Source: Bacillus sp. 123MFChir2 (GTDB lineage Bacteria > Bacillota > Bacilli > Bacillales > Bacillaceae_G). From it: a DNA stretch of 64,000 bases. The stretch is taken from the NCBI RefSeq assembly GCF_000383235.1, contig NZ_KB910928.1, forward strand, positions 78,198 through 142,197, written 5' to 3'. A program made the position numbers and the translations under genes. This document shows, piece by piece, positions 1 through 58,685 of the stretch. The notes beneath the pieces were generated by a model. That model had not been told where the DNA came from. It made no database searches and saw only the letters and a program-made list of their open reading frames with translations. Numbering within the stretch: the stretch's first letter is position 1; each line of letters starts with the position of its first letter.

Positions 1-45
1 CTTCTATGCATAGCCAGTCCCTCTCGCCCACTCAAAAAGAAAAGG
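1..45 (+). repeat. Partial copy of the dispersed intergenic repeat, cut by the window edge
   Basis: The first 45 bases carry the repeat's right half: a CTATGCATAGCCAG-type core, a CTCTCGCCCA block and a run of A and G. The same block recurs at 181-240, 4441-4490 and 58610-58660. The left part lies outside the window. Two copies in the same orientation within 250 bp suggest a tandem or double insertion downstream of sdhB. Confidence 0.6.
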
Positions 46-61
46 ATATGATTCTAGTGAA

Positions 62-278
62 GATATGTCTCTCTACTACTTATAAATTCATTTTTGGGCA
101 TATAGACTGCTGTCATGCAAACAAGGCAAGGGCCTGTACTTATTTGTCTACTTTTGTTTTAAAACATCGCACGCGGCAGGAAAAGGCCCTGACCGACTCT
201 ATGCATCGCCAGTTGCTCTCGCCCACCGAAAAAGAAAAGGGTTTTTATGTTAGTTTTTCAATTCGCATCTATATATAC
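62..278 (+). repeat. Dispersed intergenic repeat, near full-length copy
   Basis: This stretch shares an ordered series of blocks with 4330-4535, 31795-31980 and 58485-58685. The blocks are a TTTTGTTTTAA-type segment, a GCACG(C/T)GG(C/T)AGGAAAAGG segment, CTGACCG followed by a GCCAG arm, CTCTCGCCCAC, an A-rich stretch, and a GTTTTTATGT to TATATATA tail. The CTGACC and GGCCAG-like arms could form a short hairpin. It lies downstream of sdhB, just outside its terminator. It resembles the bcr-type repeats of the B. cereus group, but I cannot assign a class. Confidence 0.75.
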
Positions 279-313
279 AAAAATTGCCTCTTCAAACTGA
301 AGAGGCAATTTAA
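279..313 (-). terminator. Terminator of the sdhCAB operon
   Basis: A 14-bp inverted repeat (AAATTGCCTCTTCA and its complement) with a 3-4 base loop lies immediately after the sdhB stop codon. It is followed by U-rich sequence in the minus-strand direction. Confidence 0.8.
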
Positions 314-314
314 A

Positions 315-1076
315 TTAATAGTTATTGTCACTACCAAAGAAATCTTTAAAGGATTGAATCGTTGTATCACGGTTTAATGCAGCAATCGATGTCGTTAATG
401 GAATTCCTTTTGGACAAGATTGTACACAGTTTTGTGAGTTACCGCAGTTTGCAAGTCCTCCATCACCCATCATTGCACGTAAGCGATCCGCTTTATGCAT
501 TTCACCCGTTGGATGCGCATTGAATAAACGCGCTTGTGAAAGCGGCGCTGGACCGATAAAGTCAGATTTGCTGTTTACGTTTGGACATGACTCTAAACAT
601 ACACCGCAAGTCATACATTTTGATAATTCATATGCCCACTGACGCTTCTTCTCTGGCATTCTTGGCCCTGGACCTAAGTCATACGTACCATCAATCGGAA
701 TCCATGCTTTTACACGCTTTAACGCGTTAAACATGCGGCTACGGTCTACTTGCAAGTCACGAATAACCGGGAATGTTTTCATCGGTTTTAAGCGAATTGG
801 TTGTTCTAGTTTATCAATAAGTGCTGTACATGATTGACGTGGTTTTCCGTTGATTATCATCGAACAAGCACCGCAAACTTCTTCTAAACAGTTCATATCC
901 CAAGCGATAGGTGTTGTCTTGTTTCCTTTCGCATCAACAGGATTACGACGAATTTCCATTAATGCCGAAATAATATTCATATTTGGACGATATGGAATTT
1001 CAAATTCTTGATCATACTCCTGGGAGTTTTGACCGTCCTGTCTTGTAATAATAAGGCGGATTGTTTTCTCAGACAT
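315..1076 (-). CDS. sdhB: Succinate dehydrogenase iron-sulfur subunit SdhB
   Basis: This is the electron-transfer subunit of complex II. It passes electrons from the SdhA flavin to menaquinone at the cytochrome b558 subunit on the inner face of the membrane. The 253-residue length is normal for Bacillus. The N-terminal ferredoxin domain has the [2Fe-2S] cysteines at C63, C68, C71 and C83. The C-terminal domain carries CMTCGVCLESCP (about 154-165) and CGNSQNCVQSCP (about 211-222), which supply ligands for the [4Fe-4S] and [3Fe-4S] clusters. It is the last gene of sdhCAB. Its start overlaps the end of sdhA by 8 bp, which suggests translational coupling. Confidence 0.97.
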   Translation of the reverse strand: MSEKTIRLIITRQDGQNSQEYDQEFEIPYRPNMNIISALMEIRRNPVDAKGNKTTPIAWDMNCLEEVCGACSMIINGKPRQSCTALIDKLEQPIRLKPMKTFPVIRDLQVDRSRMFNALKRVKAWIPIDGTYDLGPGPRMPEKKRQWAYELSKCMTCGVCLESCPNVNSKSDFIGPAPLSQARLFNAHPTGEMHKADRLRAMMGDGGLANCGNSQNCVQSCPKGIPLTTSIAALNRDTTIQSFKDFFGSDNNY

Positions 1077-2862
1077 GTTGCTTATCCCCCTTTTCTTCTC
1101 CCTTAGCAGCTACTTCATGTTTTGAAGAATAATCGCGCTTACGTGGTTGGATTAACGAAATATCAACGTCTTCGTAATGGAATGCCGGGGCATTTCCTGC
1201 TCCCTCAAACTTCGCCATTGTTGTTTTTAAGAAGTTCTCATCATCACGATCTGGGAATTCTGGCTTATAATGTGCACCGCGACTTTCATTACGATTATAT
1301 GCACCAATTGTAATAACACGAGCTAATTCAAGCATGTTTGCTAGTTGACGTGTAAACGAAGCACCTTGGTTGCTCCATTTCGCTGTATCGTTAATGTTAA
1401 TGCGTTTATAACGCTCCATTAACTCTACGATTTTCGCATCTGTTTCTAATAATTTTTTATTTTCACGAACTACTGTTACGTTATCTGTCATCCATTCTCC
1501 AAGCTCTTTATGAAGAACATATGCATTTTCATTACCATCTAACGTTAAAATGTTGTTGAATTTTTCTGTTTCGATTAATTCATTTTGCTCATATACAGAA
1601 GATGAAACAGCATCTGATGATTTCGACAGACCCTTCATATATTCAATTGCATTCGGTCCTGCTACCATACCACCGTAAATCGCTGATAATAGTGAGTTAG
1701 CACCTAGTCGGTTACCACCGTGCATAGAGTAGTCACACTCACCTGCTGCAAATAATCCTGGAATATTTGTCATTTGCTTATAGTCAACCCATAATCCACC
1801 CATTGAATAGTGAACCGCTGGGAAGATTTTCATCGGTACTTTACGTGGATCATCACCCATGAATTTTTCATAGATTTCAATGATTCCACCAAGTTTAATA
1901 TCAAGCTCTTTCGGATCTTTATGAGAAAGATCAAGATATACCATGTTTTCACCGTTAATACCAAGTTTTTGCTCAACGCACACATCGAAAATTTCACGCG
2001 TTGCAATATCACGAGGTACAAGGTTTCCGTATGCAGGATATTTCTCTTCAAGGAAATACCACGGTTTTCCGTCTTTATACGTCCAAACACGACCACCTTC
2101 ACCACGTGCCGATTCACTCATCAGGCGTAATTTATCATCGCCTGGAATTGCTGTTGGGTGGATTTGGATGAACTCACCGTTTGCATAATGTGCACCTTGC
2201 TGATATACAGCAGATGCTGCTGTACCTGTATTAATAATAGAGTTAGTAGATTTTCCAAAAATGATACCAGGGCCCCCTGTTGCCATAATCACGGCATCAG
2301 CTGGAAAACTTTTAATCTCCATAGATTGTAAATCTTGTGCTACGATTCCGCGGCATACGCCTTCGTCATCTACAATAGCGCGTAAGAAATCCCAACCCTC
2401 ATATTTCGTAACAAGACCTGCTACTTCATGACGGCGTACTTGCTCATCTAACGCATATAATAATTGCTGTCCTGTTGTTGCACCAGCGAATGCTGTGCGG
2501 TGATGCTGCGTTCCACCGAAGCGGCGGAAGTCTAGTAATCCTTCTTCCGTACGGTTAAACATAACACCCATGCGATCCATTAAATGAATAATGCCAGGTG
2601 CTGCATCGCACATCGCCTTTACAGGAGGTTGGTTCGCTAAGAAGTCCCCTCCATAAATTGTATCGTCAAAGTGAATCCACGGAGAATCCCCTTCACCTTT
2701 TGTATTTACAGCACCGTTAATGCCGCCTTGTGCGCATACAGAGTGAGAACGTTTCACTGGTACTAAAGAAAATAGTTCTACATTCACGCCTGCTTCCGCT
2801 GCTTTAATCGTTGCCATTAAGCCGGCTAATCCACCGCCAACTACGATAAGTTTCCCTTTCAT
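1069..2862 (-). CDS. sdhA: Succinate dehydrogenase flavoprotein subunit SdhA
   Basis: This catalytic subunit of complex II oxidises succinate to fumarate with covalently bound FAD. It links the TCA cycle to the respiratory chain. The 597 residues begin with the dinucleotide-binding fold VVGGGLAGL. The HSVCAQGGINGA segment belongs to the flavin-attachment region. The succinate-site signatures HPTAIPGD and RGEGG are present, and the C-terminal FAD contact GGNRLGANSLL follows. The gene lies 13 bp after sdhC and overlaps sdhB by 8 bp, so the three subunits share one transcript. No irregularity is seen. Confidence 0.97.
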   Translation of the reverse strand: MKGKLIVVGGGLAGLMATIKAAEAGVNVELFSLVPVKRSHSVCAQGGINGAVNTKGEGDSPWIHFDDTIYGGDFLANQPPVKAMCDAAPGIIHLMDRMGVMFNRTEEGLLDFRRFGGTQHHRTAFAGATTGQQLLYALDEQVRRHEVAGLVTKYEGWDFLRAIVDDEGVCRGIVAQDLQSMEIKSFPADAVIMATGGPGIIFGKSTNSIINTGTAASAVYQQGAHYANGEFIQIHPTAIPGDDKLRLMSESARGEGGRVWTYKDGKPWYFLEEKYPAYGNLVPRDIATREIFDVCVEQKLGINGENMVYLDLSHKDPKELDIKLGGIIEIYEKFMGDDPRKVPMKIFPAVHYSMGGLWVDYKQMTNIPGLFAAGECDYSMHGGNRLGANSLLSAIYGGMVAGPNAIEYMKGLSKSSDAVSSSVYEQNELIETEKFNNILTLDGNENAYVLHKELGEWMTDNVTVVRENKKLLETDAKIVELMERYKRININDTAKWSNQGASFTRQLANMLELARVITIGAYNRNESRGAHYKPEFPDRDDENFLKTTMAKFEGAGNAPAFHYEDVDISLIQPRKRDYSSKHEVAAKGEEKGDKQHV

Positions 2863-2875
2863 GCTCTCCCACTCC

Positions 2876-3502
2876 TTACAAGTTTGCTAGATTTGGATTA
2901 ATGAACGCAAATAACGCGCTCACTCCTACGTATGATAATGCTAAGAAAATTGCTAATGTTACATACGTAGAAATACGCTGTGAACGTGGTGACACTGTGA
3001 TACCCCAGCTAATAAAGAATGTCCATAATCCATTTGCAAAGTGGAAAATAGCTGATACAACCCCAACTAAATAGAAGCCAAACATAAATGGATTGCTTAA
3101 AATAGCTGCCATCATATCATAGTTTACCGTTTGTCCGAGCGCAGCTTGAATGCGAGTTTCCCAAATATGCCAAGATAGGAATATAAGTGTAATTACTCCG
3201 GTAAATCGTTGCAAAACGAACATCCAGTTGCGGAAATAGCTATACGATGTTGCATTGTTCTTTGCTGTAAATGCGATATATAAACCATATACAGCATGGT
3301 ACAAAATCGGTAAGAAAATCACAAAGATTTCTAATGCGTACCGAAACGGAAGCATTTCCATGAAATGAGCAGCACTATTAAACGCCTCTGCTCCTCTTGT
3401 TGCAAAATTGTTAATTACTAAATGTTGCGTCATAAAGACGCCAATTGGAATGACACCCAGTAACGAGTGCCACTTGCGAAATGTATACTCGCGGCCTTTC
3501 AT
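2876..3502 (-). CDS. sdhC: Succinate dehydrogenase cytochrome b558 subunit SdhC
   Basis: This membrane anchor of complex II carries haem b and hands electrons to menaquinone. The 208 residues contain about five hydrophobic segments, roughly at 15-35, 55-80, 90-115, 135-160 and 180-200. Histidines within or next to them are candidate haem ligands (for example KWHSLLG, TQHLVIN, LSWHIWE). This is the single five-helix type-B anchor typical of Bacillus. It is the first gene of the operon. A good AAGGGGGT ribosome site precedes the ATG. Two candidate promoters and a perfect inverted repeat lie upstream. Confidence 0.95.
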   Translation of the reverse strand: MKGREYTFRKWHSLLGVIPIGVFMTQHLVINNFATRGAEAFNSAAHFMEMLPFRYALEIFVIFLPILYHAVYGLYIAFTAKNNATSYSYFRNWMFVLQRFTGVITLIFLSWHIWETRIQAALGQTVNYDMMAAILSNPFMFGFYLVGVVSAIFHFANGLWTFFISWGITVSPRSQRISTYVTLAIFLALSYVGVSALFAFINPNLANL

Positions 3503-3549
3503 GTCCCCATTACCCCCTTGAATGTTTGACTAGTGTTTGTCGCATTACT

Positions 3550-3583
3550 TTATAACAATAGCATTTTACCACTATTGTTATAA
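3550..3583. promoter_or_regulatory. Perfect 12-bp inverted repeat upstream of sdhC
   Basis: Arms TTATAACAATAG and CTATTGTTATAA flank a 10-base spacer. Read on the minus strand, the spacer holds TGGTAAAAT, an extended -10-like motif. It lies 48-81 bp before sdhC. It could be an operator over a promoter, or a leader hairpin if transcription starts at the upstream promoter near 3637-3666. The repeat is seen; either function is inferred. Confidence 0.5.
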
Positions 3584-3636
3584 GAAAAACTGAAAAAATT
3601 ATTCGCAATATTTCAGCATAATTTGATAACATGTTC

Positions 3637-3666
3637 ATTTTACTCCTATTTTTGTCGAAGCGTCAA
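3637..3666 (-). promoter_or_regulatory. Candidate sigma-A promoter of sdhCAB
   Basis: On the minus strand TTGACG (3661-3666) is followed after 18 bp by TAAAAT (3637-3642). Transcription from here would give a leader of about 125 nt containing the inverted repeat at 3550-3583. Confidence 0.5.
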
Positions 3667-3765
3667 GAAAACGTATACATAATCAGTATATAATTTTTAT
3701 ATTCTGTTTTTCATTCTCTACATCAGATTTTCCCCAAAGAAATAGCTGTGTTTATATATATAAAA

Positions 3766-3776
3766 TGGTATATAAT
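3766..3776 (+). promoter_or_regulatory. Candidate -10 element for yslB
   Basis: A TATAAT hexamer lies at 3771-3776, about 29 bp before the yslB start, with a TG a few bases upstream. No convincing -35 is visible at the right distance, so this is a weak call. Confidence 0.35.
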
Positions 3777-3804
3777 ATTGACAGTATAGAAAGTGGGGAA
3801 TATT

Positions 3805-4254
3805 GTGAGTACAAAAAAAATCGAGAGCGAATCTTTACAAAATATTTCAATCAATGCCTTTGCCTATGAATTGCTTCGTGAAGAATTACTCCCTGATTTA
3901 ATAGGGAAAGAACTAGATGCCATTTTATATTGGGCCGGCAGAAATTTAGCACGAAAATACCCGTTAGAAACAATTGATGAGGTCATCCAATTTTTCACAA
4001 CAGCTGGTTGGGGCGACTTAACAATCATTGAACATAAACGTCGTGAAATGCAATTTAAACTAACAGGTGCTCTTATTGAAGAACGTGAGCAACAAAAAAG
4101 ACATTCTTCTTACCAATTAGAAGCTGGTTTTATCGCTGAACAAATTCAAAAGCAACGCAGTGTGATTGCGGAATCTTACGAAAAACAGAAAAAGCGCTCT
4201 AGCTCTGTTACATTTCTTGTACAGTGGGATGTAAAAGATTCTGTCGAAGTATAA
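3805..4254 (+). CDS. yslB: YslB family protein (DUF2507)
   Basis: This is a cytosolic protein of unknown biochemical role that is conserved in Bacillales. The product is 149 residues from a GTG start (VSTKKIESES). That start is preferred because GTGGGGA lies 4-10 bases before it; an in-frame GTG at 3793 would lie inside the ribosome site. The segment FAYELLREELLPDLIGKELD is the recognisable family block. The C-terminal third is rich in Gln, Lys and Arg and probably helical. The position between sdhC and uvrC matches B. subtilis synteny. The gene is transcribed away from sdhCAB and ends in its own terminator. Confidence 0.85.
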   Translation: MSTKKIESESLQNISINAFAYELLREELLPDLIGKELDAILYWAGRNLARKYPLETIDEVIQFFTTAGWGDLTIIEHKRREMQFKLTGALIEEREQQKRHSSYQLEAGFIAEQIQKQRSVIAESYEKQKKRSSSVTFLVQWDVKDSVEV

Positions 4255-4266
4255 TGCTCATTCATT

Positions 4267-4301
4267 AGTCAACTAGACATGACGTCCAGTTGACTTTTTT
4301 T
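4267..4301 (+). terminator. Terminator of yslB
   Basis: The arms AGTCAACTAGAC and GTCCAGTTGACT form a 12-bp stem with one mismatch and a short loop. Seven T residues follow. Confidence 0.85.
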
Positions 4302-4329
4302 ATTCCTTTATTTGTGGGCGATGGAAGTT

Positions 4330-4540
4330 TCACTTTCTCTATAATATATAAATACAAGTTGACTTTTTAACATCTAAGTCGCTGCTACTTGCTGTCTATC
4401 TTTGTTTTAAACTTTTCACGTGGAAGGAAAAGGAACTGACCACCTCTATGCATGGCCAGTTCCTCTCGTCTTCTCCCCTAAAAAATTGGTTTTTATGTCA
4501 TTTTTTCAATTTGTATTTATATATAAACAGTGACATTCTT
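4330..4540 (+). repeat. Dispersed intergenic repeat, near full-length copy
   Basis: This copy has the same ordered blocks as 62-278, including CACGTGGAAGGAAAAGG, CTGACC with a GGCCAG arm, CCCCTAAAAAA and TTTTTATGTCATTTTTTCAA. It fills the space between the convergent yslB and uvrC genes, with a terminator on each side. Its 3' end is the mirror of the inverted copy at 30205-30345. Confidence 0.7.
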
Positions 4541-4547
4541 GGATTAC

Positions 4548-4581
4548 AAAAAAAGAAGACATTTCCAATTACAATGTCTTC
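4548..4581 (-). terminator. Terminator of uvrC
   Basis: GAAGACATT and AATGTCTTC pair around a 9-base loop and are followed by seven U on the minus strand. The uvrC stop codon lies in the loop. Confidence 0.8.
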
Positions 4582-6350
4582 CCTGTTAAATACGTATGAA
4601 TGGTTTCAGCTATTTTTTGCGGCATTCCAGCTTCTATAATATCTGCAACAGACGCTTCTTTCATTTTCTTAAGAGAGCCAAAATGTTTTAAAAGTGTTTT
4701 CTTCCGTTTTTCTCCAACACCTGGTATATCATCCAATGCCGATTGAATGACAGATTTCCCGTGAATTTGACGATGAAATGTAATCGCAAAGCGGTGTACT
4801 TCGTCTTGAATACGTTGTAATAAGTAAAACTCCTGGCTGTTACGCTCTAATAAAACTGGTTCCGGCGGTTCACCAATTATTAAATGTGACGTGCGATGTT
4901 TATCATCTTTCACAAGCCCTGCTGTTGGAATAGAAAGACCGAGTTCATTTTCTAACACATCACATACTGCAGCGAGATGACCTTTCCCGCCATCAATTAC
5001 AATTAAATCTGGAAGTGGTAAGCTTTCTTTTAAAACACGTGTATAACGACGGCGCACAACTTCACGCATCGATTCATAATCATCAGGTCCTTGCACCGTT
5101 TTAATTTTATATTTACGGTACTCTTTTTTGGCAGGTTTTCCATCGTTAAAGACAATCATCGCGGAAACCGGATTTGTTCCTTGAATGTTAGAATTATCAA
5201 ATGCTTCAATTCTATGCGGCGTTTCTATCCCTAGCTGTTCTCCTAATTTTTCGACCGCCTTAATGGAGCGTTCTTCATCGCGTTCAATTAAATAAAATTT
5301 TTCATGCAGTGCAATTGTAGCATTCTTACTCGCTAAGTCGACAAGTTCCTTTTTCTGGCCCCGTTTTGGCTGCGTTGCTTCTACGTCTAAAAACTTTCCA
5401 ATCAATTCATGATCAATGCTGCTTGGTACAACAACTTCTTTCGGTTTAAAGTGATTATTTTGTTCATAAAATTGTCCGATAAACGTTAGGAATCCTTCTT
5501 CCGTATCATCATAAATCGGAAACATCGAAACATCCCGTTCAATCAACTTTCCTTTTCGAACGAAAAATACTTGCACGCACATCCAACCTTTATCAACCGC
5601 ATAACCAAACACATCGCGGTCGACTAAGTCACTCATAATCATCTTCTGCTTTTCCATTATTGCATCCATATGAGCAATTTGATCTCGCAATTCTTTCGCT
5701 CGTTCAAACTCTAATTTTTCTGATGCTTCATACATTTTCGCTTCCAATTCCGAACGAATTTCTTTATGTCCACCATTTAAAAACTTTATAATTCCATCGA
5801 CAATTTCTTTATTTTGTTTATCGGTTACCTCTTGTACACAAGGCGCTAAGCATTGTCCCATATGATAATACAAGCAAACTTTATCTGGTATATTTGTACA
5901 TTTCCGAAGCGGATACATACGATCTAACAACTTTTTCGTTTCATGAGCTGACTGTGAATTTGGATATGGACCAAAATATTTCCCTTTATCCTTTTTTACA
6001 TTTCTCGTAATAAGCAAACGCGGCTCTTTTTCAGCTGTAATTTTAATAAATGGGTATGTTTTATCATCTTTTAATTGGATATTATACTTTGGGTCATATT
6101 TTTTAATTAAATTTAGCTCTAAAATGAGAGCCTCCAAGTTCGAGGAGGTGACAATATATTCAAAATCAACAATTTCCCCAACAAGACGGAGTGTCTTTCC
6201 ATCGTGTGAACCAGTAAAATATGAGCGCACACGATTTTTTAACACTTTCGCTTTTCCAACGTAAATAACTATCCCTTGTTTGTCTTTCATTAAATAACAA
6301 CCAGGCTGATCTGGTAAAATTGCTAATTTTTCTTTTAAATGATCGTGCAC
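4569..6350 (-). CDS. uvrC: Excinuclease ABC subunit C (UvrC)
   Basis: UvrC is the nuclease of nucleotide excision repair. With UvrB it cuts 3' and then 5' of a DNA lesion. The 593-residue length is normal. In order it has a GIY-YIG nuclease domain (about 12-90, with [19 protein letters not shown]), a UVR UvrB-binding helix pair (about 200-235), an RNase H-like nuclease domain (about 380-540, with AFDNSNIQG and [11 protein letters not shown]) and a C-terminal helix-hairpin-helix ([17 protein letters not shown]). The start is a GTG (VHDHLKEK), preceded by an AAAGGGGAAG ribosome site. The gene ends inside its terminator. Confidence 0.97.
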
Positions 6351-6365
6351 GCGACTTCCCCTTTC

Positions 6366-22944: not shown

Positions 22945-23062
22945 TATATAAAGCCATTTTAATTTTCCGACATATAAGTCACTGCTATGCACGACCAGAT
23001 GCTCTCATTCTCCCTAAAAGAAAGGGATTTTCATGTCGTTTTTCAACTTAAATATAACTCCT
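22945..23062 (+). repeat. Dispersed intergenic repeat, internally deleted copy
   Basis: The left block (TTCCGACATATAAGTCACTG) is followed directly by the GACCAGATGCTCTCATTC and CCTAAAAGAAAGGG blocks and the TTTTTCAACTT tail. The middle section with GGAAAAGGCACTGACC is missing compared with 31795-31980. The join lies in the core hairpin. Confidence 0.65.
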
Positions 23063-24540: not shown

Positions 24541-24675
24541 AATCGTTCCTCCCTAAATAGATCTTCGAGATATAAGCCTTTGCTATACAAGATACAACAT
24601 GATCGCAACTTGCTTTCCCCCTTTCGCATGTGGCAAAAAAGGGAGGTATATTACTCTTTTAACTTGTCTGTCAAA

Positions 24676-30204: not shown

Positions 30205-30345
30205 GACAGCAATCTATATAAATACAAATTGAAAAAATGACATAAAAACCAATTTTTTAGGGGAGGAGACCAGAGCAACTAGCCATGCATAGAGGCAATC
30301 AGGGCCTTTTCCTGCCACACGCAAAATTTAAGAACTAAGAAAGGC
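30205..30345 (-). repeat. Dispersed intergenic repeat, inverted partial copy
   Basis: On the minus strand this reads GGAAAAGGCCCTGATTGCC, TATGCATGGC, then CCCTAAAAAATTGG and a TTTTTATGTCATTTTTTCAA tail. The tail matches the copy at 4330-4540 almost exactly. The left blocks have drifted. Opposite orientation to neighbours shows that the element is mobile or was mobilised. Confidence 0.65.
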
Positions 30346-30449
30346 ACCAATCTATATGCTGAAAAACGATAGCATAACAAGGTTTTTGGAAATATTTGTA
30401 GAATAATAGTCTGTAATGAAAGAAAAAAGCAGAAAGGAAAATAATTTGA

Positions 30450-31073
30450 ATGGATAAATTGGATTATTTAAAGCAACAAATAAAAGAAAAGTACAAAAAG
30501 CATAATGGAGATAGACCCTTTATTCTTGCGATAGATGGTTTAAGTGGTGCTGGGAAAACGACATTCGTACAGCACCTAAAAAATGACTTCGATAATGTAG
30601 TCATTATCCATATAGATGACCATATTGTTGAGCGAGCTAAAAGATATCATACAGGGCACGATGAATGGTTTGAATATTATCAGTTACAATGGGATACTAC
30701 TTATCTAAAAGAACACTTATACGACAAATTGTATCAAAACAAAAAGTATCTATCTTTGCCATTTTACAACAAGGAAAAAGATACATTTACATAGAGAACC
30801 ATAAATATATCACCTAAAAGTATTGTAATCATTGAAGGTATTTTTCTTTTGCGGGAAGAATGGAAAACATTTTATGATTACGTAGTATTCTTAGATTGCC
30901 CTAGAGAGATAAGATACGAGCGTGTACTTCATCGTGATACATACATAGGGAATTTGGAAGAGCGATTAAAGAAATACCAAAATAGATATTGGGTAGCAGA
31001 AGATTATTATTTAAAAAAGCAAAAGCCTTTAGAACTTGCTCATTACGTTCAACAACTAGATGGGGCTAATTAA
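30450..31073 (+). pseudogene. Uridine-kinase-like P-loop kinase broken by an in-frame TAG
   Basis: The frame encodes a small-molecule kinase-like P-loop protein: Walker A GLSGAGKTT (30-38), then IIHIDDHIV, and after the break IVIIEGIFLLREEW and VVFLDCPREIRYERVLHRD, the lid region. Codon 115 (30792-30794) is TAG. The same frame then stays open to the TAA at 31071-31073, 208 codons in all, so a single point change explains the break. The second half alone lacks the P-loop. The start ATG follows AGAAAGGA. A hairpin terminator follows. Substrate unknown; a sequencing error is possible. Confidence 0.8.
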
Positions 31074-31794: not shown

Positions 31795-31980
31795 TATTAC
31801 TAATTTATAAATCCATTTTAACTTTTCAACGTATAAGTCACTGCTAGCCAAAACAAAAAGTGATCTCCACTTATTTTCTCTCTTTGTTTTAACATTGCAC
31901 GTGGTAGGAAAAGGCACTGACCGCTTCTACACACGGCCAGATGCTCTCATCCACCTAAAAAGAAAGCGGTTTTTATTTTA
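31795..31980 (+). repeat. Dispersed intergenic repeat, full-length copy
   Basis: All blocks are present in order: TTTTCAACGTATAAGTCACTG, an AAAAAGTGATC segment, TTTGTTTTAACATTGCACGT, GGTAGGAAAAGGCACTGACC, an ACACGGCCAG arm, CCACCTAAAAAGAAAG and GGTTTTTATTTTA. Its right end supplies the stop codon region of ywbD (31973-31975), so insertion may have reset the end of that gene. It lies between convergent genes. Confidence 0.75.
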
Positions 31981-33169
31981 TCTTCTTAATAAACACAACT
32001 TTTAAATAATCACCTTCTGGAAACTGCGAAATAGTCCGGAAGTCCTCTGGTAATGAATGTTCTTCTAACACTTTATACTTGCCATTCATTTCTTTAAATG
32101 CTGTATCAATGAAGCCTTTGAACTTTTTCATACCGAAAGTACTGCAATTAGTAGAAGCTACAATAATACCGTTATTTTCTGTAATCGCAATGGCTTCTTT
32201 TAGTAGGTTTTTATAATCTTTTGCAGCGCTAAATGTATATTTTTTTGAACGCGCAAAGCTTGGTGGGTCCAGAATGACCATATCAAACTTCAGAGCTTTC
32301 TTTACTGCATATTTGAAATAGTGAAATACATCTTCTACGATAATATCTTGCGCTTCGTAATCAACACCGTTTACGCTAAATTGCTCAATTGTTTTACTTA
32401 AGCTGCGGTTCGCAAGGTCCACACTTGTCGTCTTTACCGCTCCGCCAAGTGCTGCAAAGACAGAAAACGCACCTGTGTAGGAGAACATATTCAAGACCGT
32501 CTTTTCAGCTGCATATTTGTCGCGAATTTGCTTTCTTACATTACGTTGATCTAAAAAGACACCAACCATTGCTCCGTCATTTAAATATACCGCAAAGTTG
32601 ACCCCATTCTCTTTGACGATAATCGGAAATTCTCCGCGTTCTCCTGTTACAAAATCGTCTTCTTCAATATATTGTCCCTTAGTATCAAAGCGCTTTTTCT
32701 GATAGATCGCTTTAAATGTAGTCACATTCTGTAAGGAATCGATAATCTCTTTACTAAATTGATAAATGCCTTCACTGTACCAGCTAATCACGTAATACCC
32801 ATCATAGTAATCAATGATTAAGCCGCCGATTCCATCACCTTCACCGTTGAACACGCGAAATGCGGTTGTATCTGAATCCTCATAAAAGCTTTTACGTTTA
32901 CTTAAAGCAGATTTAATCTTCTTTTCAAAGAAGGCTTGGTCGATTTGTTCTTGTTCTTTTCTTGTTAGAAGCCAGCCATATCCTTTATTTTGCTTTCCAT
33001 AATATCCTGTACCAATAAACTTATTTTTGTCGTCTACAAGTTTTACGATTGTACCTTCTACATTTACATCCTGTAAATTTATAATCGCTTCTTTCGCAAT
33101 AAGTGGATAGCCACTTTTTAATTCGTTTATGTATTTCGTCTTAACCTTTAAAGTAACTTCTGTTTTCAT
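31973..33169 (-). CDS. ywbD: Class I SAM-dependent rRNA cytosine methyltransferase, RlmI/YwbD-like
   Basis: The 398-residue protein starts with a PUA-like RNA-binding domain (about 1-90), followed by a Rossmann methyltransferase domain with motif I VLNMFSYTGAFSVFAALGG and motif IV MVILDPPSFARSK, as in 23S rRNA m5C1962 methyltransferases. Activity on rRNA is inferred by family. The gene lies next to ywbE in convergent orientation. Its stop codon falls in the edge of the repeat copy at 31795-31980. Confidence 0.88.
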   Translation of the reverse strand: MKTEVTLKVKTKYINELKSGYPLIAKEAIINLQDVNVEGTIVKLVDDKNKFIGTGYYGKQNKGYGWLLTRKEQEQIDQAFFEKKIKSALSKRKSFYEDSDTTAFRVFNGEGDGIGGLIIDYYDGYYVISWYSEGIYQFSKEIIDSLQNVTTFKAIYQKKRFDTKGQYIEEDDFVTGERGEFPIIVKENGVNFAVYLNDGAMVGVFLDQRNVRKQIRDKYAAEKTVLNMFSYTGAFSVFAALGGAVKTTSVDLANRSLSKTIEQFSVNGVDYEAQDIIVEDVFHYFKYAVKKALKFDMVILDPPSFARSKKYTFSAAKDYKNLLKEAIAITENNGIIVASTNCSTFGMKKFKGFIDTAFKEMNGKYKVLEEHSLPEDFRTISQFPEGDYLKVVFIKKIK

Positions 33170-40784: not shown

Positions 40785-40858
40785 TTCAACACGATTTAAA
40801 GATTCTTCGGTAATTTTCGACATACAAGTGATCGATCTGCTAACCAAAAAGTGAAAGG
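40785..40858 (+). repeat. Truncated copy of the dispersed repeat
   Basis: TTTTCGACATACAAGTGATC with CTAACCAAAAAGTGAAAGG matches only the left blocks of the repeat (compare TTCCAACATACAAATCACCG and AAAAAGTGACC at 58520-58552). The right half is lost and abuts the terminator at 40855. Two TCGGCGC motifs upstream are unexplained. Confidence 0.5.
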
Positions 40859-42904: not shown

Positions 42905-43172
42905 CAAAAAAACCTTCCATCCATAAAGGGACGAAAGGTTAAACTTCGCGGTACCACCCAATTTGTCATAAAGACCAACTCTAACTCGTATGTATTACAT
43001 ACTTCCCGGTTTGTAACAGGCCGGATTCCCGTCTAAGTCTACTCTTGAATACACAATTCAATTTCGGTTAGCAACTCCAAGGTGTTCTTCACATATACCG
43101 CCTCATCAGGCTCGCACCGTCCCTGACTCGCTTTGGATTATAGTATATACTACTTTTCCTTATCATCGTCTT
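42905..43172 (-). promoter_or_regulatory. T-box riboswitch leader of asnS, specifier AAC
   Basis: On the minus strand the order is a stem-I start near GACGATGATAAGGAAAAGTAG, then GTGAAGAACACC (43081-43092) with Asn codon AAC at 43084-43086. The T-box TGGGTGGTACCGCG lies at 42947-42960, followed by the terminator hairpin with AACCTT and GGTTTTTTT (42906-42940). Uncharged tRNA-Asn would favour the antiterminator and expression of asnS. Confidence 0.93.
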
Positions 43173-43237
43173 TCTTTTGTTAAACTAAAATTAATGTACT
43201 ACATTCCTTTGAAAGATGCAAGTTGTCTTTAAAATAC

Positions 43238-49409: not shown

Positions 49410-49657
49410 AAATAAAAAAACCTCGCTCCCTAAAAAGGGACGAGGTAAATTCGCGGTACCACCCTAAATTGACAGAACAAGTCTGCCCACTCAATTCGTT
49501 ATAACGGCTTGTTAGACCGGAACGCCTTTACATACAATGGTCCTGGCGTCAACTCCAGAGGTGAATTCACTTCCGTCTACCATAAGAATGCTTTCAGTCT
49601 ATGGCACTCTCTCCCTATATGGCGATTTTGCAAGCTACTCTTCTCTATCATCGTTTT
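49410..49657 (-). promoter_or_regulatory. T-box riboswitch leader of pheST, specifier TTC
   Basis: On the minus strand the stem-I start (AACGATGATAGAGAAGAGTAG) is followed by GTGAATTCACC with Phe codon TTC at 49563-49565. The T-box GGGTGGTACCGCGA lies at 49452-49465 and a terminator (CCTCGTCCC and GGGAGCGAGG then U7) at 49418-49446. Confidence 0.94.
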
Positions 49658-49684
49658 TTAAACTATTTCACTTTTATTGGATGT

Positions 49685-51031: not shown

Positions 51032-51049
51032 CTATACCTATACACCTAT

Positions 51050-51292: not shown

Positions 51293-51483
51293 ACATTTAA
51301 CTCCTTTCTTTATAGCGTTACTATATTTATATGATAGAGTAGCTCTCTTTGAAATAGACAGTCGGACAATCTTTCATAAATTTCTTTACTAACACAATAT
51401 GATGGAGTAAAATATTCAAAATATCTTTATAGCTATTATTTTTTCTACCATATACAGCAATGAATAAAAGGAGTGGATACTTT

Positions 51484-52056: not shown

Positions 52057-52073
52057 TCAATAACTATACACAG

Positions 52074-52103
52074 ATCACCTTAGTAAATGCTAAGGTGATT
52101 TTT
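52074..52103 (+). terminator. Terminator of the HD-domain gene
   Basis: ATCACCTTA pairs with TAAGGTGAT around eight bases, then TTTT. Confidence 0.8.
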
Positions 52104-52206
52104 ACTTTGATTGCGAAGTTTCGAACTATTATGTAACATTATCTCCTGGAACATTTCATCCAAATATGTATAATTTTATATATAAACAATAGAAAGGATT
52201 CGATAT

Positions 52207-52920: not shown

Positions 52921-52959
52921 TAAACAAGAGGTACACAAAGTCAAATTACTATTATTAAA

Positions 52960-53061
52960 AAGGAGCACAACTTTGCTGGTGCACGTAGCCAAATGAGTAG
53001 CATCCGAAATACTGGCGGGTTAATTTGCGCAACCGCTCTAGTCGGTATTTTTATCTTTTAA
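52960..53061 (+). pseudogene. Possible 3' fragment of a lost gene
   Basis: A frame without a good start ends at TAA 53059-53061 and encodes FAGARSQMSSIRNTGGLICA and TALVGIFIF. An ATG lies inside (MSSIRNTGG, 22 codons) but has no ribosome site at the right distance; AAAGGAG lies about 30 bases upstream. The end resembles a hydrophobic C-terminus. It could be a remnant or chance. Confidence 0.25.
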
Positions 53062-53074
53062 TGTAGTAAACAAG

Positions 53075-53106
53075 CAAAAAAGCAGAGATTATCTCTCTGC
53101 TTTTTT
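53075..53106. terminator. Terminator of the DHA2 exporter unit
   Basis: AAAAAAGCAGAGA pairs with TCTCTGCTTTTTT around six bases. It overlaps the end of the exporter gene and works in both directions. Confidence 0.85.
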
Positions 53107-54852
53107 GTTCGCCTTATTTCCTGGTTGTAAGAAAAACGATAAGACTAATGCAATTGCCGTTAAGATTGTTGCAATCCAGAATGCATCATTAATTCCGTTA
53201 ATAACGGATAACTTCGAAACTTGCCCAAATAGCATTTGTGAGCCTAATGCGTTTCCTGCCTGCGCTGATCCTGTCATTGTAGCCATTTGCGATAGTTTGT
53301 TTACGATAATTGGATTCGTTGTTGTAATTGCATTTGCATAGTCTGCCATATGATTTGTCGTTTGCTGCGTCATAATTGTAATTAATAACGCAGTTCCAAT
53401 GGAGCCCGCAACTTGTCTTGATGTATTTTGCGTTGCTGTTCCATGAGAAATAAGTTTCATTGGCAGAGCATTCATCCCCGCTGTCATGATTGGCATCATG
53501 ATAAACGACATCCCAAACGAACGAATAATATAGTCTCTCATAATTTCACTATAAGGTGTCTCTAATGTTAAATGTGTAAATTGATATGTTGCATATGTTG
53601 TAAGGATTAATCCAAAAATAGCAAGTGGTCGAATGCCGTATCTATCAAATAATTTCCCGGCAAATGGCCCCATCATTCCCATGATTAAAGATCCTGGCAG
53701 AAGGAGTAACCCTGAATCAATTGGTGTAAATCCACGGATGTTTTGTAAATATACAGGAAGCAATATCATCCCGCCGTATAATGCCATCGTAACAACTACA
53801 TTGATTAAAAGCGTTGAAGTAAATGCCGAATAGCTGAATACACGCAGGTCTAACATTTTATTGTCAGTCGTTAACTGTCTCCAGACGAATAGACTGATTC
53901 CGATAATACCAATCACCATCGTAATGATAACTTCCGCGCTGCTCCAACCTTTATTCCCTGCCTCACTAAAACCATAAAGTAAGCTTCCAAGTCCGATACT
54001 AGAAGCAACTACACCGAAAGTATCTAGTGTTGCCTTCGTCACAGGCTGTTTCAATGTAAAATATTTTAGTGCTAATACGATAATAAGTAATCCAATGATA
54101 AACATGGCATAGAACATAACATTCCATGTGTAGTTTTGAATAATCCAGCCTGTAAGTGTTGGTCCAATGGCAGGTCCTAAAATCATCGCAATACCAAGCA
54201 GTCCCATCGCAGCCCCGCGCTTATGAGGCGGGAAGATAGTCATGAAAATATTCATTCCAACCGGCATTAAAATACCAGCACCTACTGCTTGAATAACACG
54301 CCCTGTCATCATCATCGTAAAGCTTCCAGATATCGCACAAATCATCGAACCTGCCGTAAAGAACAGCATAGCCGCTAGAAATAAGTTTCGATACGTAAAC
54401 CGTGAAACTAAAAATGCACTAATTGGCACTAATACCCCGTTCACCAACATAAATCCTGTTGTAAGCCACTGTGCGGTAGATGTTGATACATTAAATTCAT
54501 TCATTAATGCTGGCAAAGCAACGTTAATTAATGTTTGATTTAAAATTGAGACGAACATCCCGAAAATAAGAACAGCTAAGACGACTTTTACATTAAATTC
54601 AGGAAGCACCGTTTGAGAACGAGAAGCTTTCGGCTCCGTATCTTCCGCTTTTTGTTCTTGTTTTTCACCTGTTTCTTCTTCCGTAACTTTCGGTATTTCT
54701 TGTGTTCTTACTGCCTCTTTTTTATGATCTGAAACCCCTTGTGCTTGAACTGGTTCTTCTATCTCTTTTCCTTTTTTTCTAAATACACGATTTACAATAA
54801 TGAACACGACGATACATAAAAGAGCGTATCCTGCAATAAAGATCGAGGACAT
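53089..54852 (-). CDS. DHA2-family (EmrB/QacA) multidrug exporter with N-terminal extension
   Basis: This 587-residue, 14-helix MFS proton-drug antiporter has motif FVSILNQTLINVALPALMNE in helix 1, TAQWLTTGFMLVNGVLVP, and GRVIQAVGAGILMPVGMNIF (motif B/C). The usual start would lie near residue 85. Before it is an extra membrane helix (IFIAGYALLCIVVFIIVNRV) and a charged, Glu/Lys/Gln-rich linker (about 25-80), which is unusual for EmrB. The gene lies 13 bp after the HlyD gene, which supplies the periplasm-side adaptor. Confidence 0.9.
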   Translation of the reverse strand: MSSIFIAGYALLCIVVFIIVNRVFRKKGKEIEEPVQAQGVSDHKKEAVRTQEIPKVTEEETGEKQEQKAEDTEPKASRSQTVLPEFNVKVVLAVLIFGMFVSILNQTLINVALPALMNEFNVSTSTAQWLTTGFMLVNGVLVPISAFLVSRFTYRNLFLAAMLFFTAGSMICAISGSFTMMMTGRVIQAVGAGILMPVGMNIFMTIFPPHKRGAAMGLLGIAMILGPAIGPTLTGWIIQNYTWNVMFYAMFIIGLLIIVLALKYFTLKQPVTKATLDTFGVVASSIGLGSLLYGFSEAGNKGWSSAEVIITMVIGIIGISLFVWRQLTTDNKMLDLRVFSYSAFTSTLLINVVVTMALYGGMILLPVYLQNIRGFTPIDSGLLLLPGSLIMGMMGPFAGKLFDRYGIRPLAIFGLILTTYATYQFTHLTLETPYSEIMRDYIIRSFGMSFIMMPIMTAGMNALPMKLISHGTATQNTSRQVAGSIGTALLITIMTQQTTNHMADYANAITTTNPIIVNKLSQMATMTGSAQAGNALGSQMLFGQVSKLSVINGINDAFWIATILTAIALVLSFFLQPGNKANKKAER

Positions 54853-54865
54853 ATTTCATTCCCCC

Positions 54866-55519
54866 TTACTTATGAATCCGAACTGTGACATTCATGCCTG
54901 GAACAATATTTAATGATTTACTATGATCTAATGAAATCTTAACAGGAATAACTTGTGTTACTTTCGTATAGTTCGCTGTTGCGTTGCTAGATGGTAACAT
55001 AGAGAATGTATTTGCTGTAGTTAAGCCAATTTGTTCTACTTTTCCTGTTAATGTCGTATCAGGATATGCATCTACATATACATCTACTTCTTGCCCTTTT
55101 TGGATCTCATCTACGTCTGTTTCTTTAATATTTGCCGTTACCCATAAATCACTCATATTGCAGGCATATGCAAGCGGTGTTCCCGGTGCAATATATGAAT
55201 CTTGCGTTGCATTCGATTGAACAAGCGTTGCATTTGCTGGAACTGTAATATCTACTTCTTGTGCAGCATTACCAGCGTTACTCATTACAGAACCTACTTT
55301 ATCACCAGCGTTATAATTTTTTCCTATTTCTGCCTTCCAACCTGTTAACTTCCCTGCGACTGGAGATGCAATAGGTACAACTTTTCCATCAATTTTTGCA
55401 TTATCCGTTTTTAAATAATTTGTTGATTGATTGTAATAATAATAACCAGCAAATCCGCCGCCAACTAATACAATCAACGTAACAATATTAATGATAATCA
55501 TTCTCCGAATTTGACTCAT
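54866..55519 (-). CDS. HlyD/EmrA-like membrane fusion protein
   Basis: The 217-residue adaptor has one N-terminal membrane helix (IIINIVTLIVLVGGGFAGYY) and a short biotinyl-lipoyl/barrel domain: KIDGKVVPIASPVAGKLTGW, then VTANIKETDVDEIQKGQEVD and VPGMNVTVRIHK. The long coiled-coil hairpin of EmrA is missing, as usual in Gram-positive members without an outer membrane. It is the first gene of the exporter unit, next to the divergent TetR gene. Confidence 0.88.
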   Translation of the reverse strand: MSQIRRMIIINIVTLIVLVGGGFAGYYYYNQSTNYLKTDNAKIDGKVVPIASPVAGKLTGWKAEIGKNYNAGDKVGSVMSNAGNAAQEVDITVPANATLVQSNATQDSYIAPGTPLAYACNMSDLWVTANIKETDVDEIQKGQEVDVYVDAYPDTTLTGKVEQIGLTTANTFSMLPSSNATANYTKVTQVIPVKISLDHSKSLNIVPGMNVTVRIHK

Positions 55520-55806
55520 TGTTTCCCTCTCCTTAGTTTTAATATTAATTGAATTTCTAATAAGTCCATCTCTCTTTTTAATTAATAAAGTTTACCATTC
55601 ACTTTGTTAAGGACTAATTTAAAAAAGACCCTTTGTCCACGCACAAAATCCCCTCCTTATCTTGTGCTAAGAAAAAGAATATCGTTTATAATTATAAATA
55701 ATTCGGTTCGAATGACAATCGACAATTTAATTCAATATGTTGTTTTTCCGACATTCCCATATATATATGTTGAAAAAATATAAAAAAACAAGCAAGGAGA
55801 ACGAAA
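55520..55806. promoter_or_regulatory. Divergent control region, hlyD and tetR
   Basis: Both genes read away from this AT-rich region, so their promoters and the TetR operator should lie here. I see AT-rich partial palindromes (for example ATTAATTGAATT near 55545) but no convincing 15-20 bp operator. The start codons have AGGAGAGG (hlyD side) and AAGGAG (tetR side) ribosome sites. Confidence 0.4.
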
Positions 55807-56418
55807 ATGTCTATTAAAAACTCAAACGATCCTCGCGTAAAACGAACGAGACAGGCAATACGTGATGCCCTTATATCTTTAATACATGAAAAAAGTTTCA
55901 ATAGCATTACCGTTCAGGATATTGCTGAAAAGGCAACTGTAAACCGTGCAACCTTTTATAGCCATTATTATGACAAATATGATCTACTAGACAAAAGCAT
56001 TGAAGAAATGCTAACAACATTAGCAGACATTCTCAAACCAAAAAAATTAGATAAGAATGAGTTTAAACTTACCCTCGATACTCCTCATCCTGTCTTTCTA
56101 TCTTTGTTTAGTCATATTGCTGAGAATGTTTTCTTTTATCAAGTGATGCTTGGGGCGAATGGGATTCCGAAGTTTTCCTCTCGAATGATGAAAGCAATTC
56201 AAACGAATTTACTTCTTAGCCTTTCTATTTCACAACCAAATGACGAGAAATTAGTTGTACCGCGTGATATCCTCATTAGTTATGTATCAGGTGCACATTT
56301 AGGAATGGTCATTTCTTGGCTCAAACAAAATATGCCATATACACCTCATTATATGGCCTTACAGCTAGCTCGTTTAATCATTTTAGGTCCGTATACAGCG
56401 GCTGGATTAGAGCAATGA
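55807..56418 (+). CDS. TetR/AcrR-family repressor
   Basis: The 203-residue regulator has an N-terminal helix-turn-helix: TRQAIRDALISLIHEKSFNS, then TVQDIAEKATVNRATFYSHY and DKYDLLDKSIEEML. The C-terminal part is a DUF-type ligand domain (LARLIILGPYTAAGLEQ). It is divergent from the hlyD/emrB-like exporter and is its likely repressor. Inducers are unknown. AAGGAG precedes the ATG. Confidence 0.88.
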   Translation: MSIKNSNDPRVKRTRQAIRDALISLIHEKSFNSITVQDIAEKATVNRATFYSHYYDKYDLLDKSIEEMLTTLADILKPKKLDKNEFKLTLDTPHPVFLSLFSHIAENVFFYQVMLGANGIPKFSSRMMKAIQTNLLLSLSISQPNDEKLVVPRDILISYVSGAHLGMVISWLKQNMPYTPHYMALQLARLIILGPYTAAGLEQ

Positions 56419-56452
56419 AAAGAGCGAAAGGAATGCCCTCTCGCTCTTTTTT
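56418..56452. terminator. Terminator shared by tetR and ysdC
   Basis: AAAAGAGCGA pairs with TCGCTCTTTT around 13 bases. Both convergent genes can use it. Confidence 0.8.
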
Positions 56453-56455
56453 CTA

Positions 56456-57541
56456 TTAATCAAATGTAATGTTATGTACAGCTTCATTATCAAGACGTTT
56501 CACAACTTCTACAATTAACTTCACTGTATTTTCATAATCATCGCGATGTAACATTGCCGCATGGGAATGAATATAGCGAGTTGCAATGGTAATTGCCATT
56601 GCTGGAATACCGTCTACAGAAATATGAATTGCTCCTGCATCCGTTCCGCCGCCAGGAAGAGCATCATATTGATACGGAATATTTAATTCATCTGCTACGC
56701 CAACAACAAAGTCACGAAGACCTTTATGCCCAACGATAGATGCATCGTATAAAATAATTTGTGGGCCATCACCCATTTTTCCTTGTGCTTCTTTTTCGCT
56801 TACTCCTGGTGTATCACCAGCGATTCCAACATCTACTGCAAATGCGATATCTGGTTGAATATAATGTGCAGATGTTTTCGCCCCGCGAAGACCTACTTCT
56901 TCTTGTACTGTTCCAACACCGTATACAATGTTTGGATGCTTTTCATCTTTTAATTGTTTTAAAACATCGATTGCAATTGCGCAGCCAATACGGTTGTCCC
57001 AAGCTTTTGCAAGTAACATTTTTTCATTTTTCATTACTTGGAATTCGAAATATGGTACAACTTGATCTCCTGGACGCACGCCCCATTCCAATGCTTCTTC
57101 TTTACTAGAAGCACCAATATCAATAAACATATCTTTAATATCAACTGGTTTTTTACGAACTTCCACTGGTAAAATGTGCGGTGGTTTTGAACCAATGACA
57201 CCCGTTACATCACCTTTGCTCGTAACAATTGTTACGCGCTGTGCTAACATAACTTGTGACCACCAGCCGCCAACTGTTTGAAAGCGTAAGAAACCTTTAT
57301 CATCAATTTGCGTAATCATAAAACCAACTTCATCTAAATGACCGGCTACCATAATTTTTGGACCATTGCCGTCACCAATTTTTTTCGCAACTAAGCTTCC
57401 TAAGTTATCTGTTGATACTTCATCAGCAAACGGTGCGATATATTTCTTCATTACTTCACGAGGCTCGCGTTCGTTTCCAGCAATCCCGCGTGCATCTGTT
57501 AGTTCTTTTAGCATCGTCAAGGTCGCATCTAGTTTTGTCAT
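56456..57541 (-). CDS. ysdC: M42-family metallo-aminopeptidase
   Basis: This cytosolic two-metal aminopeptidase of 361 residues has metal-ligand motifs [12 protein letters not shown] (first His and Asp), [12 protein letters not shown] (bridging Asp), [14 protein letters not shown] (catalytic Glu pair), [12 protein letters not shown] and the last His in [10 protein letters not shown]. The peptide-trimming role is inferred from the glutamyl-aminopeptidase/TET family. The position near rplT matches B. subtilis ysdC. Confidence 0.92.
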
Positions 57542-57612
57542 TGGACAATGTCCTCCTTTTTCTTCATCTCTTCAATTATACAAGAGCGGAAAAGAATGTT
57601 CAAAAAATTCCA

Positions 57613-58104
57613 TCAATACCCTTCTGTTTGACGTTGATGATTTACTTCATTTTTATCTACATATGCTTTCTCAATCTCTTCTTGTTCAAAATCAAGCGCT
57701 TGTCCTAAACGAAGATAGCTCGTAAACAATTCAATGTAATTTGTAATAGATGGCTGTTCATTAAAGCGAATTGCTTTCGCATATACATCTAAGAAAATTT
57801 CTACTTGCGTTTTATTTGTTAGTGCACATTTATAAAACAAGAAGTTTTTATCAATTCCTAAATCGATTCCAATAGATAAAATAAAATGCAGCCCATCTAC
57901 GTATTCTTCTAGTACAACTTGACGCTCAGATGCTGGCTTGTTACTCCAATATTTAAAGCAGCGTGTTTCATTTGCAAGTTCACCAATTTCTACAAGAAGT
58001 GCTAGCATTTTTTCTTTTAATAATTTTTTCGGTTCTAAATTATGTTCTTTCGTAATACGATCATCTAATTCTTTTTGTAGTTTAAATAATTGTAGTAAAT
58101 CCAA
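57613..58104 (-). CDS. Dimeric all-alpha dUTP diphosphatase
   Basis: This cytosolic 163-residue enzyme hydrolyses dUTP (or dUDP) to dUMP, lowering uracil in DNA. It has the MazG-type metal motifs E-x-x-E in LLVEIGELANETR and E-x-x-D in LEEYVDGLHFIL, and a KELDDRI start region. The TTG at 58104 is chosen because AAGGAGGAG lies eight bases upstream; the longer frame to 58122 would include the ribosome site. Confidence 0.85.
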   Translation of the reverse strand: MDLLQLFKLQKELDDRITKEHNLEPKKLLKEKMLALLVEIGELANETRCFKYWSNKPASERQVVLEEYVDGLHFILSIGIDLGIDKNFLFYKCALTNKTQVEIFLDVYAKAIRFNEQPSITNYIELFTSYLRLGQALDFEQEEIEKAYVDKNEVNHQRQTEGY

Positions 58105-58289
58105 AACGTACTCCTCCTTCAATATCGTATAAGCTTACTCGATATTGCTCCATTCTAATGGTAAATATAAACAAATAACCTAGTTATATTCTTACATTAT
58201 AACAGCGCTAGTTTCGTGTGGAAAGACAAGATTGTCTGAAGTCAAGCACCCTATTCACAGCATATTTCATATATATCTATCGTGACCAC

Positions 58290-58406
58290 TCAGTCACTTT
58301 ATAAAAAACAACGACAGAAAAGCATTTTTCAAATGGTCCTGAGGGGCTGGCCATGTACAGGAGCGGTCAGGAGGTTTTATGTAAGGCTTTTAACTCGTAT
58401 ATATAA
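58290..58406 (-). repeat. Dispersed intergenic repeat, inverted divergent copy
   Basis: On the minus strand this has a TATATATACGAG end, a CTCCTGACCGCTCCTGTACA segment and ATGGCCAGCCCCTCAGG. It keeps the core hairpin (CTGACC with GGCCAG) but the flanks are strongly changed. It faces the copy at 58485-58685. Confidence 0.5.
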
Positions 58407-58452
58407 ATAAACATAAAAATCCAGAGAATCTCTCCGATTTTTCATGTTTATT
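58407..58452. other. Long hairpin between two repeat copies
   Basis: AATAAACAT pairs with ATGTTTATT, with inner AAAATC/GATTTT and AGAGA/TCTCT pairing. It may stop read-through from either side. No T run makes it a firm terminator. Confidence 0.45.
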
Positions 58453-58484
58453 CTTCTATATTATTGAAACTTTTATGCTTACTT

Positions 58485-58685
58485 TGTCATAGCTATAAGC
58501 CCAACTTGGCTTTCCAACATACAAATCACCGCCACGCTGATCAAAAAGTGACCTACCACTTTCTTTCTCCCTTTGTTTGAACATCGCACGTGGCAGAAAT
58601 AGGCACTGACCGCTTCTACGCATAGCCAGACACTCTCGACCAACAAAAAAGAAAAGGGCTTTTGGGTTTTAACTTGGATTTATCT
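58485..58685 (+). repeat. Dispersed intergenic repeat, near full-length copy
   Basis: It has TTTCCAACATACAAATCACC, an AAAAAGTGACC segment, TTTGTTTGAACATCGCACGT, GGCAGAAATAGGCACTGACC, GCTTCTACGCATAGCCAG, CTCTCGACCAAC and an A/G-rich block. It lies after the rplT terminator, in the same relation to a 3' end as the copies after sdhB and uvrC. Confidence 0.7.

Follow-up and report, generated by a model that had tools for sequence, protein, structure and literature searches.

A paper of 2004 reportedly described bcr1, a repeat of the Bacillus cereus group, as having the characteristics of a mobile element. It is assigned to group A (bcr1-bcr3) and is entered with lengths of 147 and 167 nt in the table of PMC2267715. 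Movement of bcr repeats has been ascribed to a recombination-like process at TTTAT motifs (PMC6542083), and, across all bcr repeats of two B. cereus strains, 84 of 165 and 62 of 155 were found in transcripts, with only bcr3 correlating with decay rate (PMC3446304). The portions of the bcr literature consulted name no enzyme that moves bcr1, and no IS630 link for bcr-type repeats was found in the literature searched, which comprised partial texts and lay apart from the bcr1 papers of 2004 and 2011; PMC10969869 makes no mention of bcr, Bacillus, Tc1 or IS630. For RUP, a repeat of Streptococcus pneumoniae, the transposase of IS630-Spn1 has been proposed as a mobilizer acting in trans, on the basis that RUP ends match those of IS630-Spn1 and that insertion occurs at TA (PMC2229807, PMC3049150). 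A MITE driven by an IS630 transposase is a known kind of element.

We analysed 64,000 nt of Bacillus sp. 123MFChir2 (NZ_KB910928.1, positions 78,198-142,197, forward strand), hereafter the window, which carries a repeat family resembling the bcr1-type repeats of the B. cereus group. The two are likened by description, not by consensus letters: common to both, as far as the sources describe bcr1, is that they are short, dispersed, intergenic, MITE-like, mobile and partly transcribed (PMC2267715, PMC3446304, PMC6542083, PMC3733652). Our best explanation, to which we assign a probability of about 0.86, is that the family consists of non-autonomous MITEs of the IS630/Tc1-mariner type; it is probably the bcr1-like repeat of the B. 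cereus group.

The initial annotation had listed nine segments as members of a single family. Most copies were recovered independently by a repeat search of the window (families D1-D4, inverted pairs I1-I3), and a profile HMM built from elements of the related genome G006 alone matched eight of the nine segments, five at E 8.7e-13 or better, 22982-23043 at E 2.5e-5, 1-47 at E 0.013 and 58369-58304 at E 0.093, compared with a best E of 1.7 in the reversed window. The match to the ninth segment, from 40795, was weak (an HMM trained on five window copies gave E 0.028), although its end ranks seventh in one transposon-end matrix. The nine segments thus form one real family, the last of them weakly attached, and the two that had been called inverted (30205-30345 and 58290-58406) were both matched on the minus strand by the G006 HMM. 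The window-built HMM also found an additional decayed fragment at 24559-24643 (E 3.8e-5). The copies, with refined bounds set by eye from alignments and profile matches, are as follows.

1..47, plus strand: partial copy, truncated by the window edge, that retains the core and some of the 3' side (G006 HMM, E 0.013; window-built HMM, E 2.2e-8).
78..275, plus strand: full-length copy (repeat search, alignment, HMM).
4345..4523, plus strand: full-length copy that lies between convergent ORFs and keeps both terminal inverted repeats (repeat search, ORFs, end matrix, HMM).
22945..23056, plus strand: internal-deletion copy between divergent genes (ORFs, end matrices, HMM).
24559..24643, plus strand: decayed 5' fragment, absent from the earlier list (window-built HMM).
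30215..30395, minus strand: full-length copy with a decayed 5' end (repeat search, end matrix, HMM).
31803..31990, plus strand: copy whose 3' part reaches into a gene end (end matrix, alignment, HMM).
About 40795..40850, plus strand: truncated copy with the left end only, the weakest member (E 0.028, end matrix).
58299..58405, minus strand: short variant, partial (repeat search, HMM).
58492..58686, plus strand: full-length copy adjoining the 3' end of the L20 gene (repeat search, HMM).

The five long copies measure 179-198 nt and look old because their pairwise identity is 61-80%; the window copies are probably immobile by now. Most sites touch the 3' end of a gene, which agrees with the earlier placement of the copies at 3' ends or between convergent genes, but the copy at 22945-23056 lies between divergent genes. 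The copy at 31803-31990 overlaps the end of a 23S rRNA methyltransferase-like gene (31973-33169), and on that side its terminal repeat is unrecognisable. In the copy at 58299-58405 the core and one 3' side match the minus strand and the other edge (58373-58405) bears a weak 3'-end likeness on the plus strand (E 0.11), so that both edges look like 3' ends.

Several neighbouring features were observed. The 3' end of the copy at 78-275 abuts the T-rich tail of a terminator-like hairpin (281-311) that stands after an sdhB-like gene; judged by eye, the copy that ends at 58686 has a similar position beside the L20 gene, where the terminator-hairpin scan listed no hairpin. A 114-aa ORF beside a repeat copy (30450-30794) matches only the first 110 of 193 positions of the kinase family PRK07667 and looks like a truncated gene. 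Rfam identified three T-box leaders (49433-49660, 42924-43175 and, on the minus strand, 62217-62443) upstream of ORFs resembling pheS-pheT, a 463-aa ORF and thrS, names that we assigned from position and length and, for thrS, also from protein comparison, as well as an L20 leader (59914-60034, minus strand) upstream of infC-rpmI-rplT-like genes. At gathering score, Rfam matched no repeat copy.

No repeat copy was found by HMM scans of 126 other loci (best E 0.38), and no repeat match was found in plasmids or phages. A 20-letter core pattern had one match among viral contigs, which was rejected as an unrelated G+C-rich phage-like contig, and a second pattern had none. A coding role was likewise rejected, as open frames are inconsistent among copies: the longest stop-free stretches in the five long copies span 38-66 codons, their frame and strand vary by copy, and shuffled copies are often as long in open frame (4 to 162 of 200). 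The long copies are far too short for a transposase, and no transposase gene lies inside the repeat.

We aligned 21 of the 22 full-length G006 copies with the five long window copies. The repeat has imperfect terminal inverted repeats of ~30 bp that match IS630 ends. The family ends have the form TATATAARTNCA...CGACATA, as in IS630-family (Tc1/mariner) transposons; intact ends start with TATATAA, followed near position 24 by CGACATA, either exact or decayed, and most intact 3' ends read TTTATATA, with TTTAT inside. We examined 13 IS630 loci from other genomes, seven of which supplied 14 ends, chosen for starting with TATATAA or TATATAG, for a scoring matrix. L176, L177 and L182, the ends of which are TATATACATGC or a variant of it, were initially excluded and later added, giving 20 ends from 10 loci; L180 and L186 have no clear end pair, and at L184 only a neighbouring repeat is visible. 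With the 14-end matrix, six repeat ends were the top six of 127,942 window positions, and the 20-end matrix placed the same six on top (22.1 to 17.0 bits; next place 14.3). Taken singly with the 14-end matrix, only the end at 22945 (25.1 bits) scores above the maximum of 30 shuffled windows (19.9); the remaining five, at 13.7 to 15.8 bits, fall within the shuffled-window range. When inner positions were scored across the full window, or when the matrix was trained on the smallest set (5 ends), the repeat ends were not all on top. Among 515 window sites within one mismatch of TATATAA, the eight repeat ends outscore the 507 others at the inner 23 positions, with p values of 8e-7 (20 ends), 9e-7 (14 ends) and 7e-7 (eight ends further chosen for the CGACAT design). 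A reversed matrix reached at most 12.3, and its five best places include no repeat end as defined, one of them (58397-58426) overlapping the edge of a copy; complementing the matrix amounts to repeating this test on the opposite strand.

The left end at 22945-22974, the window's best match to IS630 transposon ends, is like a Parageobacillus IS630 end at 19 of 23 inner positions. The terminal design TATATAARTYC...CGACAT, exact or near, was present at one or both ends of L187 (G020), L185 (G007), L178 (a Priestia flexa plasmid), and L179 and L183 (Parageobacillus plasmids), with Pfam matches to HTH_33 and DDE_3 confirming L187 and L178 as IS630. The Geobacillus/Anoxybacillus elements (L176, L177 and L182) end otherwise, for example in TATATACATGC, so the match of the repeat ends is closest to one IS630 subgroup; the CGACAT design occurred in only one subgroup of the IS630 elements examined. 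By eye, the likeness between the repeat and IS630 is confined to the terminal repeats. All four DDE_3 matches in G006 are partial and represent broken transposase pieces, and two of these four remnant loci keep an outer end of the repeat's design; a G007 protein related to the G006 transposase (137 residues, 78% identity) is a candidate partner.

A pattern for IS630 ends had matches in 19 of 397 genomes, with no match for the control pattern. From 44 listed places, 20 were fetched, L204 (a G006 repeat) and L205 (the query element) being set aside, and at nine of the 18 informative loci, of which L201 and L203 are cut by contig ends, an IS630 transposase faces inward; two of these nine (L198 and L216) are the two ends of one element. 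Among the other nine informative loci, which also include L203, L212 (G059) and L213 (G229) are notable in that a second similar end lies 111 and 242 nt away, respectively, suggesting that other miniature elements of the IS630 type may exist. L226 (G005) consists of 107 nt with paired IS630-type ends and has no match to the repeat core, as is also the case for L212 and L213; all three are possibly other MITE families.

Homologues of the repeat were sought in related genomes. When 19 genomes from a single family were searched at the DNA level (E 1e-4), at least 40 matches were obtained, all in G006, among the best 40 candidates scored, and in a DNA search of 397 genomes of the order, with the best two candidates per genome scored, again only G006 responded. 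Both searches are too blunt to show absence of the repeat, because the 19-genome search missed copies in G004 and G007 that were later found by end pattern. An end pattern gave 91 forward and 89 reverse matches in G006 (control 0+0), and a similar one gave 26+15 in G004, 9+5 in G007, 3+2 in G005 and 1+1 in G020 (controls 0). The G006 copies are 62.5% identical to the window copies and look young because their mean pairwise identity is 93.5% (21 copies); by eye they comprise at least three length variants with common outer ends or core. At L094, L098 and L154 in G006, one variant starts at the 3' end of another, as if composite units had spread, and nested insertions within G006 did not decide the target duplication. 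Nine distinct elements, mostly 182-187 nt long, were obtained from loci in G004, G007 and G005. With the window-built profile, six of them reached E values of 7.2e-5 or lower (for 4 Mb), and five of these six aligned nearly end to end, scoring as much as 34 bits; L217 gave no better than E 5.1, and neither L225 nor L226 was matched. The inner core GGCACTGACCGC is present in three of the nine and in window copies, the inner core TGACCGCTTCTA is common to window and G006 copies, and L203, in G004, is a diverged version of that genome's elements.

A tree built from ThrS, IF-3 and L20 places G006 with G004 and G007 (99/99), apart from the window; two of the four inner branches are weak, and the spread of the family may have been vertical or horizontal. 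ThrS of the window is 87.7%, 86.7% and 87.2% identical to that of G006, G004 and G007, respectively, and we took these three genomes to be outside the B. cereus group from these values. If they do lie outside it, the family extends beyond one species group, which suggests that it has a greater age and a broader range than the B. cereus group. Two window proteins are, by eye, about four fifths identical to their closest homologues of solved structure, 3pea and 3di5, which we take to be proteins of B. anthracis and B. cereus, respectively, and the window therefore probably lies in or near the B. cereus group. For another window protein, the closest counterpart among the 80 loci kept has 80% identity, and the titles of those 80 loci name no B. 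cereus group species.

Duplication of a TA target is a hallmark of the IS630/Tc1-mariner superfamily and was expected under the IS630 hypothesis. The initial annotation had regarded the family as bcr-like and mobile, had proposed that flanking target duplications be looked for, and had named a lack of empty-site alleles in related strains as a possible refutation. Element-free alleles do exist: two were found in comparing G004 with G007. L234 of G004 (186 nt with its outer TAs) is missing from the corresponding position in G007, the filled site reading CCTTC-TA[element]TA-GTTATAAC and the empty site CCTTT-TA-GTTATAAC. Similarly, L270 compared with L291 has CTAC-TA[element]TA-CATATCG when filled and CTAC-TA-CATGTCG when empty. 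Both readable element-free sites (2 of 2) thus have a single TA, compared with a TA on either side of the element when filled, and neither insertion point holds TTTAT or TATA; a TATA duplication, which we had also considered, was dropped since the empty sites carry a single TA. These sites came from two sets of loci. Of the first six, four carried the element in both genomes, one lacked it in the second genome and one was without a counterpart. When 20 further G004 loci were compared with 0.4 Mb of G007, six matched over more than 500 bases, including one clean empty site, two without a size difference and two too rearranged to read, with L269/L292 outside this tally.

These data are consistent with the following sequence of events. 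An IS630-family transposase would bind the repeat ends in trans, and the bound enzyme would then cut the element out and join it to TA sites, which would often be used in the AT-rich DNA beyond gene ends. The inner core, which is kept across genomes, is predicted to form a hairpin on most window copies, stronger on the reverse strand, and this putative hairpin, when transcribed, could perhaps function as a pause or terminator-like element.

Alternatively, the family could be a dispersed structured RNA, kept because a reverse-strand hairpin regulates or stabilizes mRNA, a reading related to the earlier suggestion that the core pairs better on the reverse strand. In the window, the reverse-strand core fold is indeed the more stable in five of six copies (mean -19.5 vs -13.1 kcal/mol), with z near -4.8 and -4.9 in two copies, and whole-element folds of the reverse strand, computed for nine distinct sequences only, gave z values of -1.8 to -2.7 in the four G006 copies sampled. 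Presence of bcr repeats in transcripts (84/165 and 62/155; PMC3446304) would also fit. In G006, however, the reverse strand is the more stable in only six of 21 copies, and neither strand of the core is more stable than shuffled sequence (mean z 0.41 and 0.74). The favoured strand differs by lineage for the eight core pairs as well, the minus strand being preferred in the window (35 vs 30 of 40) and the plus strand in G006 (143 vs 125 of 168). The covariance called for by the initial annotation proved slight: the consensus fold of 26 sequences is weak (-4.89 kcal/mol), with double changes in two of 11 pairs. A correlation with decay rate, moreover, is described for bcr3 only (PMC3446304). The hint of a reverse-strand hairpin is therefore partly supported, in that it holds for most window copies, and a conserved RNA role is not shown by a preference that is found in five of six window copies but in six of 21 G006 copies. 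We consider a structured RNA unlikely as the basis of the family, which the terminal inverted repeats and the IS630 match, features absent from the initial annotation, explain better.

Two further explanations bear on the ends themselves. According to the model stated for bcr repeats in PMC6542083, the repeats would move by a process resembling site-specific recombination at TTTAT motifs, and most intact 3' ends, TTTATATA, do contain TTTAT. This motif is accounted for as part of the repeat terminus, and both readable empty alleles have a single TA with no TTTAT or TATA at the insertion point; the TTTAT model is contradicted in the relatives G004 and G007, and we regard it as highly improbable for this family. 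The IS630 likeness could instead be an accident of base composition in AT-rich intergenic DNA, as the ends are AT-rich and shuffled windows reach scores as high as those of five of the six top ends. Such an accident is hardly credible, because it must be set against p values of 7e-7 to 9e-7 among sites controlled for TATATAA, a reversed matrix that reached 12.3 at most with no repeat end among its five best places, pattern controls that were all 0, a ranking that survived the addition of six IS630 ends, and a TA duplication that was predicted by the IS630 hypothesis and then found.

With mobilization by an IS630-family transposase as the preferred explanation, the IS630-end match and the TA duplication point to a likely enzyme family for bcr-type mobility, and the question of mobility becomes testable in any pair of sequenced strains. 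More tentatively, and with the odds rather against it, bcr1-like repeats could be one branch of a superfamily of IS630-driven MITEs that spans several Bacillaceae lineages and in which the core is kept as a working part. If this were true, the core, which movement itself should not require, might be carried as cargo, for example as a host-factor site for transposition or as a transcription terminator.

Compared with known systems, it is reasonably likely that the element is bcr1 or its close kin. The long window copies (179-198 nt) are longer than the 147 and 167 nt in the published table (PMC2267715), and the nine or ten copies within 64 kb would, were the whole genome alike, amount to a higher density than the 11-130 copies per genome published for bcr1. 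That published count used a 75% identity limit, which decayed copies of the window type would fail, suggesting that counts with such a cut-off miss decayed copies. The family has homologues in G006, G004 and G007 (ThrS 86.7-87.7% identical to that of the window), and its target in these relatives is TA, whereas that in print for bcr repeats is TTTAT (PMC6542083). The repeat has the terminal design TATATAARTYC...CGACAT in common with Bacillaceae IS630 elements (L187, L185, L178, L179 and L183), which are ~1.2 kb long and contain transposase ORFs, whereas the repeat contains no such gene. RUP is 107 bp and has its partner in the same genome, whereas here the partner is seen only in relatives or, in G006, is broken. 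Both RUP (PMC2229807, PMC3049150) and the repeat described here are small intergenic repeats with IS630-like ends, and insertion at TA is described for RUP and was observed for homologues of the repeat in relatives.
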